From Rhodospirillaceae bacterium (GTDB lineage: Bacteria > Pseudomonadota > Alphaproteobacteria > MPNO01 > UBA2964), in contig JABJKO010000274.1 in the NCBI GenBank assembly GCA_018660305.1, positions 1 through 7,430 on the forward strand: a stretch of DNA of 7,430 nt, written 5' to 3'. The notes under the pieces are model-generated. The model was not told the origin of the DNA, did not search any database, and saw only the letters and a program-made list of their open reading frames with translations. Made by a program: the position numbers and the translations under genes. This document shows positions 1 through 7,430 of this stretch, piece by piece (the stretch's first letter is position 1; each line of letters opens with the position of its first letter).

Positions 1-281
1 GCCCGCAGGCTGCGGCGCGGCGTACAGGTAGGGATGGTCCGGCAACAGGTCCCGTCGGGCAGCGGTCCCATATCACAGGCCCCGCCGGCAATAGGCGGTC
101 GGGTGCACTCCCAACGGTCGTCGTCGCGCCGGGGCTCACACTCAAAGGTCGCCTGACAGCAGCCCTTGCCATCGGGACCGATTCGACAGGGGTCGCCCAG
201 TTGAGTTCGTCCACAAATCCATTTCTGGTTGGGCCGCTCGTAATTGCTGGCGCGAAAATCAAATTGCTGAAGTATGCGCAT
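1..281 (-). CDS. Cysteine-rich protein with duplicated CC motif, N-terminal fragment
   Basis: An open frame begins with ATG at 281-279 and stays open for 93 codons to the window edge, so only the N-terminus is seen. Its ATG shares one base with the TGA of the membrane cytochrome b-like gene (TGATG), and a GGGG lies 7 bases upstream, so it is probably translationally coupled. Ten cysteines fall in 93 residues (23, 32, 41, 42, 48, 59, 69, 79, 80, 86). Two copies of one pattern are visible: Cys, two residues, Gly-Pro, a short Gly-containing loop, Cys-Cys, five residues, Cys, x, Pro-Arg-Arg (residues 32-52 and 69-90). There is no CxxCH motif, signal peptide or membrane helix in the visible part. 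The cysteines could bind metal or Fe-S, or form disulfides. I do not recognise the family with certainty; the context says it belongs to the electron-transfer operon, and a longer redox protein is plausible. Confidence 0.75.
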   Translation of the reverse strand, partial: MRILQQFDFRASNYERPNQKWICGRTQLGDPCRIGPDGKGCCQATFECEPRRDDDRWECTRPPIAGGACDMGPLPDGTCCRTIPTCTPRRSLR

Positions 282-1117
282 CACGGCGCCCCGGTCGAAA
301 ATGCATATACGGTGGCGACATGCGCGCAGGCAAGAATGATCAGGCTATAGGTGGCTGGAATATGAACAAACAGCCATAACCGCAGGGCCATATAATGGGC
401 ATAGTGGAAATCCAGATTATCCTTGGCCACGACGCGGTCTTCAATTTCCTGCAATATCTCGACCCCTTTGGGGTCAAGATACCGTTTCAGATTGTCAATA
501 TCCTGCCGAATCCGGCTTAGCTGACGGGGTGACCCGCGCAGATGATCCAACCGGTTGCGCTGGCGTCTCATGAAATGATGCAACGTATCCGTATAGAAAT
601 GGGAAATGGTCAGGGACGCTTCATCGACCACCGACCGCATGGCGAGTTCCTCGACCTCGCGCGCCAATTGAGCGCGAAATCCGGGGATCCGTTCCAGTAA
701 AATGCGTTCCGTGCCTCGTTCCAGCTTCGGCGGAATTGAAGTCGACAGGAAAAGACCGACAAGACCGCTAAGCGCCACAATCAGGAACACCGCCCACAGA
801 GCCCAGTTCAAGGCGCCGATGGGTATTTCGAAATCGGTGTGAAGCAGAAACATGCAAACCGTAAAATATCCCAGATATATGTGGATCTGGGTCCAGGTTG
901 ACGCCTTGCCCAGGGCCAGCATGGGAAGCTTCTTGCGCATGTTAAACCCGGCTAGAACGATCATCCCAGCGGCCAAAGCCCAGCCATCAAGGAATTCATG
1001 CTGGCGCAGCGCATCGGCATAAAGGATCGATATCCAGCCGAATGCCGCCACCGCCACCGCCGTTATGGCCAGGTTGCGCCACCGTCTGCGGGATGCGACT
1101 GTCAACGATGTAGCCAT
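281..1117 (-). CDS. Membrane protein, probable di-heme cytochrome b subunit
   Basis: A 278-residue integral membrane protein with hydrophobic segments near residues 15-34, 44-60, 77-96, 103-126 and 246-272. Helix 3 carries His79 and His93 and helix 5 carries His252 and His266, each pair 14 residues apart. This is the classic spacing for two stacked b hemes between two helices, as in di-heme cytochrome b and ferric-reductase-like proteins. The positive-inside rule (basic residues 10-14 and 61-63) puts the N-terminus in the cytoplasm. His79/His252 would then sit on the cytoplasmic side and His93/His266 on the periplasmic side, giving a path across the membrane. Helices 4 and 5 are joined by a charged, helical loop of about 120 residues, predicted cytoplasmic, which could dock the Fe-S protein encoded just upstream. 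The start overlaps that gene's end by 16 bases. Heme binding is inferred from the histidines; the exact family is not identified. Confidence 0.78.
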   Translation of the reverse strand: MATSLTVASRRRWRNLAITAVAVAAFGWISILYADALRQHEFLDGWALAAGMIVLAGFNMRKKLPMLALGKASTWTQIHIYLGYFTVCMFLLHTDFEIPIGALNWALWAVFLIVALSGLVGLFLSTSIPPKLERGTERILLERIPGFRAQLAREVEELAMRSVVDEASLTISHFYTDTLHHFMRRQRNRLDHLRGSPRQLSRIRQDIDNLKRYLDPKGVEILQEIEDRVVAKDNLDFHYAHYMALRLWLFVHIPATYSLIILACAHVATVYAFSTGAP

Positions 1118-2973
1118 TCGCCAAGCGCCTTCGAATCACGGATATCCATTCGCGTCAGAGCATCATGGGGACAGGCCCGCTCGCATGCCGGGCCACCTTG
1201 CTGACCGGCGCACAAATCACATTTGGTCGCTTTGGCGATCGGCATGAACTGATCGTCGGCAATCAACGCGCCGCTGGAATCCCTGGTTTCGACCATCCGA
1301 ATGTTGTTGTAGGGGCACGACGTCGCACAGGTCGCGCATCCGACACAGGTGGTGTCGTCGATCACCACATTGCCGACTGTGGTGCTACGATGGATGGCGC
1401 CGGTCGGACAGCCGATCAAACAGACCGGGTCGACGCAATGCATGCAGGCATTTGCGACCATGAAATTCCGGTAGGCAATCCCATGGCGGACAAAACGCGG
1501 ATTGCCGTCATGGGTGGCCGCACACGCCCGGACGCAATCATCGCAATTGACGCATTTATCGGTATTGATCAACATCGTGGCGGTGCCGTTGATCACCCGG
1601 TTGTCAATCAGGAAATCCAGCAAGGGCTGTTCCGCCGCTTCGGTTTCGTCCCCGGTCGGCAATGCCTGATCGAGAATTTCGGACTGCTGCACCAGAACGG
1701 AGTCGTCGAGAAGGCCGGACGGCAGATCATCAAGCAGATATTGTTCCACCAGATTTATCGGCACGCGCAGTAGATCAACATAGCCGATGGCGCGGAGGCT
1801 CCGGCGGAGTTTATGATCGCTTTCGCCCCGTTGGCTCGCGACGATTTCCTCCAGCCCGAATGCATCGTCGTTGGCCAGGAACCCAACAGTCTTTTGTCCA
1901 TGATCGACCGCAATGCTGACACGGGCGAACCCAGACCGGATCAGGATCAGTCCGTCGAGATAGTGGCCCTCTTCGGCGATAACCGGTTCCTGTTCGATGA
2001 TGCTGTCAACATGGCCTTCCCGATCGCGCGCGCGCTGAAAAGACATGCTCCATTCGAAATCGCCATGGGTTTCAAACAGGGTCTGGCCGGCGATAATTTC
2101 CAGCGTGGCGTCGTCGAGATGCTTGAAGATCGGCGACGAACGCAGATGGGTTATCAGGCCGCGTTCCCGATACAGCGCATCAATGCGTTTGCTGAAACCT
2201 TCCGACCAGCGGCGGATTTCACGCAGGGCCTGCCAGCGAAGTTCAACGACTTCGACCTCATCCGCTTCGGCAAAAATCGTGGCGCCGCGCGGGCTCCGGG
2301 CCATGGCGGCAAGCTCGCCGAACATTTCCGGCGCTGCGATGGGAAATGTATTGTAGTCGGCAATGATGTCATCGATATCTTCGAGCCGCGTGACGAATGT
2401 TTCATCAGGCTCATCGGGGTTGGAGCGCAGATTCCCTCCCCAATATTCCTTTGAACCGGGCGACGCGCCCCCGGTCATTCGCCCACGCCGGTTGAGTCCC
2501 ATATAGGACGGCGACACCACGATGGCCCGGTTGACGCTTTGGCGGAAACTCTTCTTTCCTCCGGCGGCGCCTAATTCATATTTTACCGCCGACCGGAATT
2601 CTGGAATTTTGGAATTTTGCCAAAGCTGAGCCAAGGCGCCGAACCAGCTTTTCCTGGCGACGGTGTCGGCCGGCGCGATCGCGCGTTCCGCTTCCTCACT
2701 GGCAAGGCCCCTTACCGAGCCCTTCAGGATGACGAAGACGGAACTGCCATAATCGCCACGCTGGACAATGATATCGCCACGGGAAAACCGCTGGATGCGG
2801 CCGTCATTGGCGATAATTTCCCGAAGCGGCAAATCCTTGGGGAATTCATCCGGTTCAACGGATGCGAATGACGGAAGGGCGAGGACGCGATCAACATCCG
2901 CATCCGTCATGGATTGCAGACCAAAGGGCTTATCCCACCGTTGTGGCCTGCCCGCGGCCTGGTCTTCGCTCAC
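1102..2973 (-). CDS. Cyclic-nucleotide-binding-type domains fused to four-cluster [4Fe-4S] ferredoxin
   Basis: A 623-residue soluble protein with no signal peptide or membrane helix, so cytoplasmic. Residues 58-90 match the first half of a cNMP-binding fold (GD at 66-67, QRGDYG at 71-76). The second half, with FGE at 218-220 and PRGAT at 228-232, comes only after an insertion of about 120 residues. A second, more divergent copy spans about 281-412. Residues 466-612 form a DmsB/HybA/NrfC-type ferredoxin with sixteen cysteines in four groups (474, 477, 480, 484; 510, 513, 518, 522; 543, 546, 549, 553; 585, 588, 597, 601), enough for four [4Fe-4S] clusters. Such subunits relay electrons between a redox enzyme and a membrane subunit, here probably the cytochrome b-like protein encoded next. 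The start is GTG, with AAAAGG ending 7 bases before it; the next in-frame candidate is ATG at codon 22. Ligand binding is inferred, and the second domain lacks a clear phosphate cassette. Confidence 0.92.
   Translation of the reverse strand: MSEDQAAGRPQRWDKPFGLQSMTDADVDRVLALPSFASVEPDEFPKDLPLREIIANDGRIQRFSRGDIIVQRGDYGSSVFVILKGSVRGLASEEAERAIAPADTVARKSWFGALAQLWQNSKIPEFRSAVKYELGAAGGKKSFRQSVNRAIVVSPSYMGLNRRGRMTGGASPGSKEYWGGNLRSNPDEPDETFVTRLEDIDDIIADYNTFPIAAPEMFGELAAMARSPRGATIFAEADEVEVVELRWQALREIRRWSEGFSKRIDALYRERGLITHLRSSPIFKHLDDATLEIIAGQTLFETHGDFEWSMSFQRARDREGHVDSIIEQEPVIAEEGHYLDGLILIRSGFARVSIAVDHGQKTVGFLANDDAFGLEEIVASQRGESDHKLRRSLRAIGYVDLLRVPINLVEQYLLDDLPSGLLDDSVLVQQSEILDQALPTGDETEAAEQPLLDFLIDNRVINGTATMLINTDKCVNCDDCVRACAATHDGNPRFVRHGIAYRNFMVANACMHCVDPVCLIGCPTGAIHRSTTVGNVVIDDTTCVGCATCATSCPYNNIRMVETRDSSGALIADDQFMPIAKATKCDLCAGQQGGPACERACPHDALTRMDIRDSKALGEWLHR
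2595..2618. repeat. Three tandem 8-bp units inside the Fe-S/cNMP gene
   Basis: On the plus strand the units are GGAATTCT, GGAATTTT and GGAATTTT, directly abutting. They lie in the insertion that splits the first cNMP-type domain (about residues 119-127). The unit is not a multiple of three, so gain or loss of one copy would shift the reading frame. With only three copies this may be chance. Confidence 0.6.
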
Positions 2974-2980
2974 AATCCAG

Positions 2981-2986
2981 CCTTTT
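2981..2986 (-). promoter_or_regulatory. Ribosome binding site of the Fe-S/cNMP gene
   Basis: The minus strand reads AAAAGG and ends 7 bases before the GTG at 2973-2971. It is a modest Shine-Dalgarno match, but supports the GTG start over the internal ATG at codon 22. Confidence 0.45.
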
Positions 2987-3013
2987 CAGTCAAAGCCTGC
3001 GGCCTCCGATCCT

Positions 3014-3025
3014 GCCCTATTGGGC
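3014..3025 (-). other. Small hairpin just after the tetraheme cytochrome stop
   Basis: GCCC and GGGC arms flank a four-base loop a few bases beyond the stop codon of the cytochrome gene. The stem is only four pairs and no T-run follows, so it is not a convincing terminator. It could be an RNA-processing or 3'-end stabilising element, or chance. Confidence 0.25.
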
Positions 3026-3027
3026 GC

Positions 3028-4041
3028 TCAACGAGCCGGCTTTCCCTTAAATTTAGCGGGTCCGGGAATCGCCTTATCGATAGCGCCAAACGTGCTTCCG
3101 TCATATTTCGCGGCAATCGCCATTCCGGCCGCCGCGACCTTATCCGCCGCCGCCGATAACTGGGCATCGTTGTTGAGTTTCAATCCCGCGGCCTGCGCCG
3201 CCTTGGAGGCCGCCGCCAACTCGGGAACGTTGGACAGAATTTTAGCCGCCCCCGCAAGACGCTTGCGGGCCGTCGCGGCCCGGCGCGCCATTTTCACGGC
3301 ATAGGTCTTTTTCTGGGTTGCCTTGCCGACGGCGCGCAGCGCTGTTTCCAGCTCAACCGCAAGACCGACAACAAACATCAGCCGCTTGCGCTTGGTGCTG
3401 GCGAGTTTGTTTTCCTTGCCGTTTGCGTACCAGAGATTATGGCGGATTTCGCCCTGCGACCAGGACACCAGCTCAAACTTGCTGCCGGCGGAATGCCCGC
3501 CCACATTGACCAGCTTTTCGCGCGGCACCACATGGCAGCTATAGCAATTCTTGGCCAGGGTATACATGGCCTTTGGCCGGATCATGCCGCCGGCTTCGGT
3601 TTTCGCCCAGCGGGATTTTGCTTCGGCGGCGGATTCCGTGGCTTTTTTCTTGCCGCTATAGCCGCTATGAACCTTGATCCAGCTCTTTCCGGCCGAATGG
3701 CATGATTCACAGGAAATTCCGGCGATCGCCTTTACCTTCTCGCCCTTCGTCTGGGTCGTAAAATGGCAGTCCAGACACATGCTGGCCGCTTTGATACGCC
3801 GCGCGCCCATCTTCTTGGCAATTGCGCGCGCTTCCTTGCTGCGCGGCAGAGCCCGGAAGGTTTTGAAATGATGGGTCCCCTTCCAGACCTCGGCCTCATT
3901 CTTATGGCATTCGGCGCAGGCGTTGGGGCCCATGACCTTAGACGGATCATTGGCCGCGCGCACGCTGTTCATGCCGCCGAAAAGCAGAACGAATGCCGAA
4001 ACCAGAACCAGGCCCTTAAAAAGCTTTCGGATCGAATTCAT
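3028..4041 (-). CDS. Exported tetraheme cytochrome c, cytochrome c554-like
   Basis: A 337-residue periplasmic c-type cytochrome. Residues 1-29 are a Sec signal peptide (basic N-terminus, hydrophobic core about 7-22, likely cleavage after VRA). Four heme-attachment motifs are present: CAECH (42-46), CLDCH (89-93), CESCH (111-115) and CYSCH (166-170). Spare histidines at 57, 58, 125, 183 and 201 could be distal ligands. The arrangement resembles the cytochrome c554 multiheme family. After about residue 215 comes a heme-free, Lys/Ala-rich helical region that makes up over a third of the protein. The start is ATG at 4041: it has GGGAG 7 bases upstream and begins the signal peptide, whereas the in-frame extension to 4191 overlaps the reductase gene and would bury that peptide. 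The role inferred from context is a periplasmic electron carrier between the inner-membrane components and the outer-membrane protein. Confidence 0.92.
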   Translation of the reverse strand: MNSIRKLFKGLVLVSAFVLLFGGMNSVRAANDPSKVMGPNACAECHKNEAEVWKGTHHFKTFRALPRSKEARAIAKKMGARRIKAASMCLDCHFTTQTKGEKVKAIAGISCESCHSAGKSWIKVHSGYSGKKKATESAAEAKSRWAKTEAGGMIRPKAMYTLAKNCYSCHVVPREKLVNVGGHSAGSKFELVSWSQGEIRHNLWYANGKENKLASTKRKRLMFVVGLAVELETALRAVGKATQKKTYAVKMARRAATARKRLAGAAKILSNVPELAAASKAAQAAGLKLNNDAQLSAAADKVAAAGMAIAAKYDGSTFGAIDKAIPGPAKFKGKPAR

Positions 4042-4048
4042 GCTAAAT

Positions 4049-4053
4049 CTCCC
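4049..4053 (-). promoter_or_regulatory. Ribosome binding site deciding the cytochrome start
   Basis: GGGAG on the minus strand sits 7 bases before the ATG at 4041. It is the best Shine-Dalgarno match in the window and rules in the signal-peptide start over the longer frame. It lies in an A+T-rich 61-base gap after the reductase stop; that gap could also hold an internal promoter, but no good -35/-10 pair was found. Confidence 0.75.
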
Positions 4054-4102
4054 AGACTGACTCTCATTAATCGATGTAACTATAATATTGCAGGTGATTG
4101 GT

Positions 4103-5386
4103 TCACGCGTCCAGAACGACCCGGCCCGAAGGTTGGGCGATACAGACAAGACATGAACCGGCTTCGGGCTTTTTACCCGGCCGGTGCACATATTCGATTT
4201 CGCCTTCCTTGAGGGCGGTCAGGCAAGTGCCGCAGCCGCCCGAGCGGCAACCGCTATTCATCCTGATGCCATTGGCTTCGCCGAACTCCAACAGAGTGCC
4301 CGCATCGGGGGCCCAGTTCAGCGTCTGATTCGATTTGGCGAACACGACCTCGACCGTCGCAGCAGCATCGGCGCCGGTCGTCGGCTCCTGGGTTTTCTTG
4401 ACCGTGGCGGGCCCGAAGGCTTCGCAATTGATATGTTCTTCAGGGACGCCCCACTCACCGAGTTCCTGGGTGACCATATCCATCATCGGCGGCGGACCGC
4501 AGATGTAAAATTCATAATTATTCGAATCCAGTAGAGATTTGAAAAGCTCGACCGACACAAACCCCTGCTGATGGTAGTCTTCGCCTTCGCGACAGGTTTC
4601 GCTGGGACGGCTGTAACACACCACGAGATGAACATTTGCATGCGCCCGATCAATGGCCCGCAGATGTTCGGCCATGGCGTGCTCGGCGCCGTTGCGAATG
4701 CCATAGAAAAACCAAATCTCGCGATTGCTGCCATGGGCGATCAGCGAATTCAGCATGCTGACGACAGGCGTCAGACCGACGCCGCCGCCAATCAAAACCA
4801 CGCCGCGTTCAGATTCCTCATTGAGATAGAATCCACCGGACGGCGCCATGGCCTCGACAATGTCGCCTTCCTGTAGCTGGTCATGAAAATAGTTTGATGA
4901 CAGCCCTGGAGGCGTGCCTTCCGGCGCTTTGGGCGGCGCGCCCTGGCGTTTGATCGATACCCGGTAGTAATTTTCATGGGGGCTGTCCGACAGCGAATAA
5001 CAGCGAACCACGGGCTGCGGCTCACCAGGGATCGGAAGCTCGAATGTCAGGAATTGGCCGGGATGGAAAGACGGCACCGGGCGTTCATCATGGGGCGCCA
5101 GATAGAATGAACAGATGTCACCGGCCTCGTTCTCGATAACGCGGCGGGCGATCCGGAATTTCCGTTTGCCGTTCCACGACAATTCGGTTCGGTCACGTTC
5201 GACTTTTGCCTGTTCCAGCAAAATCCCGGCGCGTTGTTTGAATGAGTCAAGCTCGGCCGCGGCCTGTCGCTGCGAGCCGGCGGCTCTGATGGCGATGGCG
5301 GAGAAGCTCATCACGACCTGGATCGCAGCGCCCAGAATGATGATCAGACCAGCCGTTTCCACTATTCCGAGCATGGGCCAGTTCAT
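4103..5386 (-). CDS. Membrane-anchored FAD/NAD(P) oxidoreductase with C-terminal [2Fe-2S] domain
   Basis: A 427-residue flavoprotein moving electrons between NAD(P)H, FAD and a [2Fe-2S] cluster. Residues 8-32 form a single N-terminal membrane helix followed by basic residues (34, 40), which places the catalytic part in the cytoplasm. A charged linker (about 40-73) leads to a ferredoxin-reductase fold: FAD-binding RCYS at 128-131, the pyridine-nucleotide loop GGGVGLTP at 200-207, and CGPPPM at 296-301. The C-terminal plant-type ferredoxin has Cys380, Cys385, Cys388 and Cys415; Cys412 is an extra nearby cysteine. This domain order is like NADH:hybrid-cluster-protein and VanB-type reductases, but the membrane anchor recalls NqrF. 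The ATG at 5386 is preferred because GGTGGA precedes it; the GTG at 5398 is part of that ribosome site. In this cluster it is the likely entry or exit point for pyridine-nucleotide electrons. Nothing separates NADH from NADPH use with certainty. Confidence 0.94.
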   Translation of the reverse strand: MNWPMLGIVETAGLIIILGAAIQVVMSFSAIAIRAAGSQRQAAAELDSFKQRAGILLEQAKVERDRTELSWNGKRKFRIARRVIENEAGDICSFYLAPHDERPVPSFHPGQFLTFELPIPGEPQPVVRCYSLSDSPHENYYRVSIKRQGAPPKAPEGTPPGLSSNYFHDQLQEGDIVEAMAPSGGFYLNEESERGVVLIGGGVGLTPVVSMLNSLIAHGSNREIWFFYGIRNGAEHAMAEHLRAIDRAHANVHLVVCYSRPSETCREGEDYHQQGFVSVELFKSLLDSNNYEFYICGPPPMMDMVTQELGEWGVPEEHINCEAFGPATVKKTQEPTTGADAAATVEVVFAKSNQTLNWAPDAGTLLEFGEANGIRMNSGCRSGGCGTCLTALKEGEIEYVHRPGKKPEAGSCLVCIAQPSGRVVLDA

Positions 5387-5393
5387 ATTTATT

Positions 5394-5399
5394 TCCACC
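5394..5399 (-). promoter_or_regulatory. Ribosome binding site of the reductase gene
   Basis: GGTGGA on the minus strand, 7 bases before the ATG at 5386. The in-frame GTG at 5398 lies inside this site and has no Shine-Dalgarno sequence of its own upstream, so ATG 5386 is the better start. Confidence 0.6.
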
Positions 5400-5429
5400 G
5401 CTCACAATGCGTCGAAGGAGTCACGCGGG

Positions 5430-5450
5430 AACCTGACGCCCGGCGTCGTT
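5430..5450 (-). other. Intercistronic hairpin between barrel and reductase genes
   Basis: The arms GACGC and GCGTC flank a three-base loop (5435-5447 core), and outer AAC/GTT bases can extend the stem past a two-base bulge. It lies in the 94-base gap, the longest in the window. No T-run follows, so it is not a standard terminator; it might limit decay or partial read-through between an abundant outer-membrane protein and the reductase. Confidence 0.35.
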
Positions 5451-5480
5451 GCCCGTATCGAGCGTCGCAACCCACCCTGA

Positions 5481-6974
5481 TCAGAACTGCGTCAGAAGTT
5501 CAACACGCGCGCCGGTCCCGTTTTGCCGCCCCTCCAGAACGGAAACGAAACCATCGATTTGCAGCTGAAAATGCTGGCCGATCGCCTGCTGAAACTGCAC
5601 GGAAAACGCCGCGGCGTCATTGCCATCACCATCATGGTCGGTCAGGTCGCGGGCATTGTCTTTTACGCCGGCCAGTTCGAAAACCAGATTTCGGCGGTGA
5701 TTATCCCAGAAAGCCTGATACCCGATGGCGATCCCGACGACTTCCGTGTTAAAGCTTGAGAGCTCGGACAAATGATTGCCCAGGCTCGGCGATGCGAAAT
5801 TGATGCCGAGCGCGGCCAGCGGCCCGCCGACAATGGGTTCCCGGCCGGCCTGGGAATAGCGATTGATGCCAACGAACGGATTTATGTAGACCACATCGTC
5901 GGAGGAATGGGGCGTCCAGGAAAATTCCGCCGACAGCAAAACGCCATCCGTCACCTGAGGAGAGTCATCATCCTCGGAAATTGATGCGTTGATGCGATAG
6001 GCTGTATTGATTTCGCCGATGCCGTTCCAGGGATTAAACCCGCGCTGGATAGCAGACAGGCCGATATAATACCCATTGCCGCCGGTCGAATCGTTATCGT
6101 CATCCTGAACGGTGATCAGATCCAGCGCAAAGGTGCTTGCCGTGGTGTCGGCCTGGGTAAACAGTCCGAAGAAGCCGCTTTCATTGAGACGCCGGCGATT
6201 GCCCACGGTCCCCCGGTCGATGCTGTCAAATGCCCACAGGCCGGTGATCCGGATGTTTGAGAAAAACGGCGCATGCAGATTGTTCCGGACCACGCCGATG
6301 GAATCCAGCACGTCATTGACCATGATCCCTTCCTGGAACGTGATCTGTTGTCGGCCAAAGGAAAAACCGTAATCGATCAGCCGCGTGCCCTTGGGATCAA
6401 GTTTCGGGAACAGGGAGCCGAAATCGCCCTCACAAAAGGCCGCGCGGACAAATATATTGAATTCATCCTGCGCCGCTTCGAGGCCCTGGTTTGATTCGAA
6501 ACTATAACGCGTGAAATTGGTGAACCGGTTTTTATCCATCGGCGCGATGCCAATGATGCATTTTTCAGTCGTTGTCAGCTGCAGGTTTGTAAACAGATCA
6601 AGCCGATGGGCGATTTCCGTATTGCGGCCGGCGGGGCCAACCGATTGATAGGTCTGGAAAGCAGTCCGGAAGGTGCCGAACACCCACAGGCACGGCGTCC
6701 ACACGGCGCCGGTTGGCAACACGATGCCTTTCGGCAGATTGCCCTTGCCGAGGAATTTACAGCCGAGTTCCAGCGGAAGCGCCGGCCTTTCAGGGACGGT
6801 CTTGAACGGTAGCGGCTTGTCCGACAGGCGGGGGACATCCTGAGTTTCCCCCAAAGGAAACAGCCCCTTGCTTTTGCCCGAGGCCCACGCCGGCGCCGAT
6901 ATGCCCGCAGCCACCAAGAACGTGACGAGCACGCCCAGAGTCACTGCCAGCTGCCGTCGATTATTTTCACCCAT
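5481..6974 (-). CDS. Exported probable outer-membrane beta-barrel protein (porin-like)
   Basis: A 497-residue protein. Residues 1-31 are a clear Sec signal peptide (two arginines, hydrophobic core about 9-27, AWA just before the likely cleavage). The mature part is rich in alternating hydrophobic/polar stretches, aromatics and Asp/Asn/Gly turns, and ends in Phe after a strand-like segment (487-497), as outer-membrane barrels do. Long acidic turns occur at 291-296, 334-337 and 446-453; the last matches a calcium-loop-like DxDxDG pattern. Four cysteines (72, 95, 139, 181) in the first half are unusual for a barrel and may form disulfides. There is no CxxCH. ATG 6974 is chosen because GGGAA lies 6 bases upstream and the signal peptide begins there; an ATG at 7016 would add 14 residues ahead of it. 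In this cluster it may form the outer-membrane passage or sheath for electron carriers. The family is not recognised. Confidence 0.8.
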   Translation of the reverse strand: MGENNRRQLAVTLGVLVTFLVAAGISAPAWASGKSKGLFPLGETQDVPRLSDKPLPFKTVPERPALPLELGCKFLGKGNLPKGIVLPTGAVWTPCLWVFGTFRTAFQTYQSVGPAGRNTEIAHRLDLFTNLQLTTTEKCIIGIAPMDKNRFTNFTRYSFESNQGLEAAQDEFNIFVRAAFCEGDFGSLFPKLDPKGTRLIDYGFSFGRQQITFQEGIMVNDVLDSIGVVRNNLHAPFFSNIRITGLWAFDSIDRGTVGNRRRLNESGFFGLFTQADTTASTFALDLITVQDDDNDSTGGNGYYIGLSAIQRGFNPWNGIGEINTAYRINASISEDDDSPQVTDGVLLSAEFSWTPHSSDDVVYINPFVGINRYSQAGREPIVGGPLAALGINFASPSLGNHLSELSSFNTEVVGIAIGYQAFWDNHRRNLVFELAGVKDNARDLTDHDGDGNDAAAFSVQFQQAIGQHFQLQIDGFVSVLEGRQNGTGARVELLTQF

Positions 6975-6980
6975 TGCCAA

Positions 6981-6985
6981 TTCCC
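6981..6985 (-). promoter_or_regulatory. Ribosome binding site deciding the barrel-protein start
   Basis: GGGAA on the minus strand sits 6 bases before the ATG at 6974. The upstream ATG at 7016 has only a GGGG about 18 bases away, too far for efficient use, so the shorter form with a normal signal peptide is preferred. Confidence 0.5.
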
Positions 6986-7052
6986 AGTTTGAATAGCTGT
7001 GTCGTAAAGGCTGCATCCCGGTTCAGGAACAACCCCTGTAAAACTTGCCCAA

Positions 7053-7430
7053 TTACTTCACGTTAAACGTCAGGGACCTCTTCACCAGAACCTCGCGCCC
7101 GGCCACCACGGCATCCGCCGCCGCCCGGGGGCTGATGCCGTAATCGAAGCCGACGACCTGAATCGTGCTGATCAGATTGATCGGGAACATCTGGGCCATC
7201 AACTCGATTGAGGCGGTATAAGGCCCTTTTCCGGTCAACTTACTCGCATCCACATTGTACTGCGCCCAACGGTGGCCACCGGTCTCGATGCCTTTTCGAT
7301 GGTTTCGCTCAACCGTCGATTCGCCGGTCAGGATCAGTGACAGGCGGGTCGGGCGCAGGAACGGAAGCGATGTGGTGGAATAGGGAATTGTCACCGTGCG
7401 TTCCCGTTCGCCGCCACGGACATTCTGCAC
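7053..7430 (-). CDS. C-terminal fragment of a larger protein, possibly a multiheme cytochrome
   Basis: The frame is open from the window edge to TAA at 7055-7053, giving 125 visible residues. The GTG at the very edge is not evidence of a true start, so the gene most likely continues beyond 7430. The visible part has no cysteine and no membrane helix; it alternates beta-strand-like segments (for example TVTIPYS and RLSLILTG) and ends in a conserved-looking block near residues 92-117 (VVGFDYGISPRAAADAVVAG), followed by a strand. A cysteine-free beta domain at the end of a large secreted multiheme protein would suit the neighbouring tetraheme cytochrome and barrel protein, but that is inference from context and a loose resemblance. 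Only 78 bases separate its stop from the chosen start of the barrel gene, so they are probably co-transcribed. Confidence 0.7.
   Translation of the reverse strand: MQNVRGGERERTVTIPYSTTSLPFLRPTRLSLILTGESTVERNHRKGIETGGHRWAQYNVDASKLTGKGPYTASIELMAQMFPINLISTIQVVGFDYGISPRAAADAVVAGREVLVKRSLTFNVK

Follow-up and report, generated by a model that had tools for sequence, protein, structure and literature searches.

The stretch of DNA analyzed here, hereafter the window, covers the 7,430 nucleotides of contig JABJKO010000274.1 (positions 1-7,430) from a Rhodospirillaceae bacterium, and carries seven genes that almost certainly belong to Subgroup II of PCC4, the published porins being compared by description. 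On the basis of the genes and of structural models, a porin-cytochrome electron conduit of this type is probably the best explanation of the cluster. The gene set was already proposed as PCC4 in 2017, and the window adds a member to it; new in this analysis are the conservation of the ligand residues in a cyclic-nucleotide (cNMP)-binding domain of its iron-sulfur protein and the association of the cluster with class III cyclases. The genes all lie on the minus strand and are, in their reading order, the following.

7053..7430, minus strand: pentaheme cytochrome c, C-terminal 125 residues, cut by the window end
5481..7016, minus strand: outer-membrane beta-barrel (model with 18 strands of at least 8 residues)
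4103..5398, minus strand: FAD/[2Fe-2S] NAD(P) reductase, membrane-anchored (Pfam, NCBIfam, hydrophobic N-terminus)
3028..4041, minus strand: tetraheme cytochrome c of the c554 family (PF13435, 1.4e-17)
1102..2973, minus strand: protein of 623 residues with cNMP-binding domains and 16 Cys (four [4Fe-4S] clusters), GTG start (Pfam, alignment), hereafter the Fe-S protein
281..1117, minus strand: inner-membrane protein with two W-x3-H-x13-H motifs, which would bind two hemes b (alignment, model)
3..284, minus strand: decaheme cytochrome c, Cys-rich N-terminal 94 of 807 residues, cut by the window end

An earlier note on this DNA had recognized a co-directional cluster with a reductase, an Fe-S protein, a membrane protein with His pairs, a tetraheme cytochrome and a barrel, which Pfam, alignments and AlphaFold2 now confirm; reductase, Fe-S protein and tetraheme are supported by both Pfam and NCBIfam. 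The tetraheme protein, the one cytochrome c listed in the same note, is not the only one: the pentaheme and decaheme genes, cut by the window ends, went unrecognized and complete the route. These two genes were resolved through the loci of relatives: positions 1-3264 of the window are 100% identical to locus L001, a contig of a Rhodospirillaceae metagenome-assembled genome (MAG) in which the last gene continues to 807 residues, while L002 (78.5% DNA identity) spans the cluster completely, as far as the pentaheme gene, the end of which is 70% identical to the part in the window.

The seven-gene set is strongly co-conserved, beyond chance. A single scan of 84,980 species genomes with an 18-row alignment of the Fe-S protein found a relative encoded by 567 of 579 pattern stretches, and the locus counts reported here rest on the best 80 loci of that scan, fetched by the Fe-S protein and spanning at least eight phyla, as judged from record titles. 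By score thresholds, these loci contain the Fe-S protein (80), membrane protein (80), decaheme (77), tetraheme (72), reductase (69), barrel (52) and pentaheme (51), the lower counts being minima because many stretches stop at contig ends. With adjacency defined as consecutive position on one strand with a gap below 400 nucleotides (overlap of open frames allowed), the membrane protein directly follows the Fe-S protein in 80/80 loci and adjoins the decaheme in 76/77, the tetraheme adjoins the Fe-S protein in 65/72, and the pentaheme gene precedes the barrel in all 49 loci holding both. The blocks themselves vary in order: barrel and reductase are adjacent in 35/49 loci and reductase and tetraheme in 38/63, the full order of the window recurs in 26 loci, and 13 have the pentaheme gene downstream of the Fe-S gene. 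Neighbor families outside the seven are rare by comparison: the most frequent is present in 10 of the 80 loci, and two others follow with 8 each. Homologues scattered and not co-conserved, the outcome that by the earlier note would refute its conduit reading, are not what the adjacency counts display. A second, divergent inner module is present in the same genome as L001 (L035, 7550-14234), with an Fe-S protein 44% identical and no barrel or pentaheme gene nearby.

The proteins of the inner-membrane module show well-preserved cofactor motifs. The reductase matches PF00175 (3.7e-21), PF00111 (4.8e-10) and PF00970 (2.1e-5), and retains RxYS in 67/70 aligned rows (3 gaps), the residues of GxGxTP in 68-69/70 and the four Cys of the [2Fe-2S] cluster in 70/70; its N-terminal segment is hydrophobic (Kyte-Doolittle 2.4 at residue 19), as it is in 61 of 65 scored relatives. 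The Fe-S protein, which matches PF00027 (1.4e-18), PF13247 (5e-9) and further Fer4 families, carries two cNMP-type domains and 16 Cys, each kept in at least 79/81 rows. Its neighbor in the membrane has no Pfam or NCBIfam family over cut-off, and its model is helical with a predicted local distance difference test (pLDDT) score of 92.9; residues W75, H79, H93, G118, G121, W248, H252 and H266 are invariant in 77/77 rows of an alignment from which a length filter removed four of the 80 loci (L021, L024, L032 and L048). The two proteins are fused in a single chain in P0083 and P0099.

The cytochromes c are recognizable in their relatives; in the window itself, only the tetraheme is whole. Among uncut relatives, 67/69 tetraheme proteins have four CxxCH motifs (one CxxCH in the remaining two), 43/46 pentaheme proteins have five and 66/72 decaheme proteins have ten; PF13435 is also found in the pentaheme relative from L006 (6.1e-9). 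The N-terminus of the decaheme (window 284-3; L001 2981-5404) presents eight Cys, conserved individually in 74-76 of 78 rows, ahead of a hydrophobic segment; it would be cytoplasmic if the hemes are periplasmic, and is possibly a metal site. Low-complexity repeats of the DILSGG kind occur in the decaheme of L001 (2981-5404), with similar ones in the pentaheme of L006 (12522-15038).

Every feature checked in the present cluster agrees with Subgroup II as described in the main text of He et al. (2017, PMC5566968), and none excludes membership. PCC4 is presented there as a porin plus three cytochromes of the periplasm (4, 5 and 10 hemes), together with a membrane protein of five helices containing two WX3HX13H motifs and SGXXG; Subgroup II additionally has a pfam13247 Fe-S gene, just upstream of the gene for the membrane protein, and a further redox gene. 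Correspondingly, the 4/5/10-heme series recurs across our relatives, a barrel occurs in the cluster in 52/80 loci, the membrane protein, helical in its model, agrees with the five-helix description and keeps the paired His motifs and GxxG in 77/77 rows, and the Fe-S gene with PF13247 precedes the membrane gene in 80/80 loci. The same text mentions that in Oceanospirillum the Fe-S and membrane proteins are possibly one gene. The hosts named there, mostly marine, come from the Zeta-, Gamma- and Alphaproteobacteria and the Planctomycetes, a shorter list than that of our survey. The earlier note had set the cluster apart from MtrCAB and PioABC; this distinction stands in that the barrel matches no MtrB family and has 18 long strands, but the set is not new, given that Subgroup II has the same parts according to its published description. 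Literature matches on PCC4 included a 2026 paper that, in the part available, refers to PCC4 as an architecture and describes porins with about 20 strands in the vicinity of ferredoxin-NADP reductase genes (PMC13264449), and two on porin-cytochromes of Planctomycetota whose available text does not name PCC4 (PMC10732223 and PMC10809760); no further relevant paper was among the matches listed.

The barrel protein matches no Pfam or NCBIfam family over its cut-off, MtrB included, and was modeled by AlphaFold2 as a beta-barrel (pLDDT 80.8, predicted TM-score 0.76) resembling porins. MtrCAB, PioAB and MtoAB likewise combine cytochromes with an outer-membrane barrel, but as described in PMC5566968 they place a decaheme inside a barrel that has 28 strands in MtrB, whereas here the gene partner of the barrel is the pentaheme; moreover, the present decaheme scores 28 bits against TIGR03508, far below the cut-off of 192 bits, and these family searches do not support homology of barrel and decaheme to MtrB and MtrA. 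The best fold matches of the 18-strand model are solute porins (chitoporin, AlgE, OccK and MOMP), and the inner module is frequently without a barrel nearby. Both facts would suit a system in which a small soluble donor or acceptor enters through the barrel, the redox step occurs in the periplasm and no electrons cross the outer membrane. We consider this somewhat unlikely, because the invariable adjacency of pentaheme and barrel, together with the detached cases that follow, suggests a physical pair. A search with the barrel alignment (E 0.001) covered 16 genomes, mostly chosen because their core locus lacks a nearby barrel, and gave matches in 11: one is the barrel in the cluster of G051, three are weak only (1e-19 to 1e-31), and seven are strong and located elsewhere. 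Five of these seven have a pentaheme gene alongside (L081, L082, L083, L085 and L086), L087 has a tetraheme-like gene, and L088 is doubtful. The genome of L001 also possesses a pentaheme-barrel pair on a separate contig (L090; barrel 67% identical). The barrel and pentaheme genes therefore form a separable module, distinct from that of the inner membrane. In L088 (1-2796), the pentaheme frame has an in-frame stop and then continues into the barrel without a stop.

The seven genes are established, as are their cofactor motifs and the co-conservation of the set. On this basis we infer a path for the electrons, ordered by the type of each cofactor and its expected location. NAD(P)H would reduce the FAD and [2Fe-2S] of the reductase at the inner face, from which electrons would pass to the four [4Fe-4S] clusters of the Fe-S protein and then to the two hemes b of the membrane protein; the membrane-anchored decaheme, the tetraheme and the pentaheme at the barrel would relay them in turn to an acceptor outside the cell. 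The first cNMP domain, with cAMP or cGMP, would adjust this flow. The interpretation as a trans-envelope conduit, already advanced in the earlier note, fits gene anatomy and co-conservation and is probably correct, and with similar confidence we expect the conduit to span both membranes. Several observations weigh against it. With 18 long strands in the model, compared with the 28 of MtrB, the barrel may have too narrow a lumen for a folded multiheme; five of the 16 genomes searched had no barrel match anywhere at E 0.001, many of them being incomplete MAGs; the fold matches of the membrane protein are within noise; and in the model of He et al. electrons travel the other way, from a donor outside the cell to quinone.

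NADPH oxidases and ferric reductases (FRD, PF01794) share with the cluster an FAD-NAD(P) module that supplies a membrane protein carrying two His pairs. That the cluster encodes an assimilatory ferric reductase or a superoxide producer of the NADPH-oxidase kind, serving iron uptake or signaling rather than respiration, appears improbable. In the present set, reductase and membrane part are separate proteins, a 16-Cys Fe-S protein is interposed, and cytochromes c follow beyond; PF01794 is not among the Pfam matches of the window proteins. Returning to the conduit, net outward flow has in our judgment about an even chance; it is favored because redox potentials and membrane potential alike would drive electrons this way, much as in NADPH oxidases. 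Electron transfer from a periplasmic high-potential donor to NAD(P)+ is, conversely, uphill and against the membrane potential. The reverse flow to NAD(P)+ contemplated in the earlier note is weakened on these grounds, as the conserved set contains no visible ion-translocating subunit, and outward transfer appears the likelier. It is also conceivable, if less favored, that the conduit works inward: an external donor, for example Fe(II) or Mn(II), would be oxidized and deliver electrons through the diheme membrane protein to the quinone pool, with the NAD(P) module reducing NAD(P)+ or forming a side branch. That is the direction that He et al. (2017) propose, their main text placing PCC4 in zetaproteobacterial iron-oxidizing bacteria and in bacteria of water filters, and a Mariprofundus MAG (L068) is present in our set. 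However, NAD(P)+ reduction would need energy for which the conserved set offers no ion-translocating subunit. Many hosts of the cluster are not known to be metal oxidizers, which also counts against the inward direction.

The first domain of the Fe-S protein contains a phosphate-binding cassette with conserved Glu and Arg, which we take to be a cyclic-nucleotide-binding motif. E220 is present in 81/81 rows and R229 in 76/81; in a second set, comprising 30 loci retrieved with the membrane protein (29 further genomes plus a second locus of G061), each is present in 28/29 rows, with one gap. To judge from these residues, cAMP or cGMP is the probable ligand of the domain, which may in this way modulate electron flow. 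The most frequent neighbor family of the 80 loci is, in turn, that of class III cyclases (PF00211). Counting PF00211 in 78 genomes, which account for 79 of the loci (that of L006 was left out), and computing the expectation from the cyclase density of each genome and the flank of each locus, we found a cyclase beside the cluster in 11/79 loci against 1.3 expected, and none of 200,000 simulations reached 11. A control with GGDEF gave 2/79 against 1.4 expected, and the second set shows a similar linkage of cyclases (3/30 against 0.36 expected, P 0.005). All 11 neighboring cyclases match PF00211 in hmmscan, ten above cut-off and that of L009 slightly below because the gene is cut. In L048 and L039 the neighbor is the sole PF00211 match of the genome; the cyclase abuts the reductase gene in L031 and L075, and lies 232 nucleotides from the decaheme gene in L048. 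Placed on a quick tree of the Fe-S protein, the 11 loci need 10 changes, 9 of them forced by well-supported branches, and thus the linkage is not one inherited arrangement. These statistics are weakened by rounded genome sizes, by many incomplete MAGs, by cyclase counts some of which are lower bounds, by the initial detection of the loci's cyclases with a local profile, and by the relatedness of the rows. The window itself ends short of the flank in which L002 carries its cyclase.

Other results speak against a role of the cyclases. No cyclase lies within the flank examined in 68/79 loci of the first set and 27/30 of the second, including all 13 Nitrospinota loci of the latter; seven genomes have exactly one PF00211 match, which is beside the cluster in two; and a match is absent from four genomes of the first set, which nonetheless keep the cNMP motif, and from three of the second. 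R229, in addition, is missing in five loci (L012, L014, L018, L067 and L070) from genomes with 3 to 39 cyclases, and two of the three cyclases beside second-set clusters (L128 and L133), which have the same architecture, give weak Pfam matches (6.5e-9 and 2.7e-9) and lie in genomes with 29 and 33 cyclases. The nucleotide sensing noted earlier for the Fe-S protein is supported by the motif and the cyclase association, with most loci nevertheless lacking a nearby cyclase. We tentatively suggest, from motif and genome context, that electron flow may be under cyclic-nucleotide control. PCC4 might then be a second-messenger-gated conduit. A class III cyclase, in some genomes encoded beside the cluster, would supply the cAMP or cGMP that binds the first cNMP domain, and this binding would turn the flow between NAD(P)H and the exterior on or off directly and not via transcription, a proposal that we hold no less tentatively. 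The main text of He et al. (2017, PMC5566968) does not contain the words cAMP or cyclase, and 'nucleotide' appears there only within a reference title.

Strong matches of the membrane protein were found in 19/289 sampled genomes of the class of G003 (E < 1e-80; 47 at E 0.001), 9/347 in the class of G004, 23/77 in the phylum of G055 and 3/369 in the class of G044 (E 1e-30). These counts include the center genomes, whose loci are titled Roseibium, a Planctomycetales, a Nitrospinaceae and an Oceanospirillum. In the class of G003, 28/289 genomes have weak relatives only (E 5e-22 to 3e-4), perhaps cytochrome-linked membrane proteins of another kind. PCC4 had been until now a genomic proposal with few listed hosts; this survey finds it widespread and adds host range, modularity and possible second-messenger control. 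If the flow is outward, reduction of extracellular acceptors could be within reach of many marine bacteria not considered electroactive, whereas an inward flow would make these genes a marker of hidden metal oxidation. Among minor observations, L045 (a Kiritimatiellae MAG) and L070 (a Gammaproteobacteria MAG) have near-identical Fe-S proteins, a sign of misbinning or recent transfer, and downstream of the cluster in L001 (5433-6803) lies a gene of the Glutamate/leucine dehydrogenase family (PF00208, 1.6e-83), a family that recurs in 6/80 loci.

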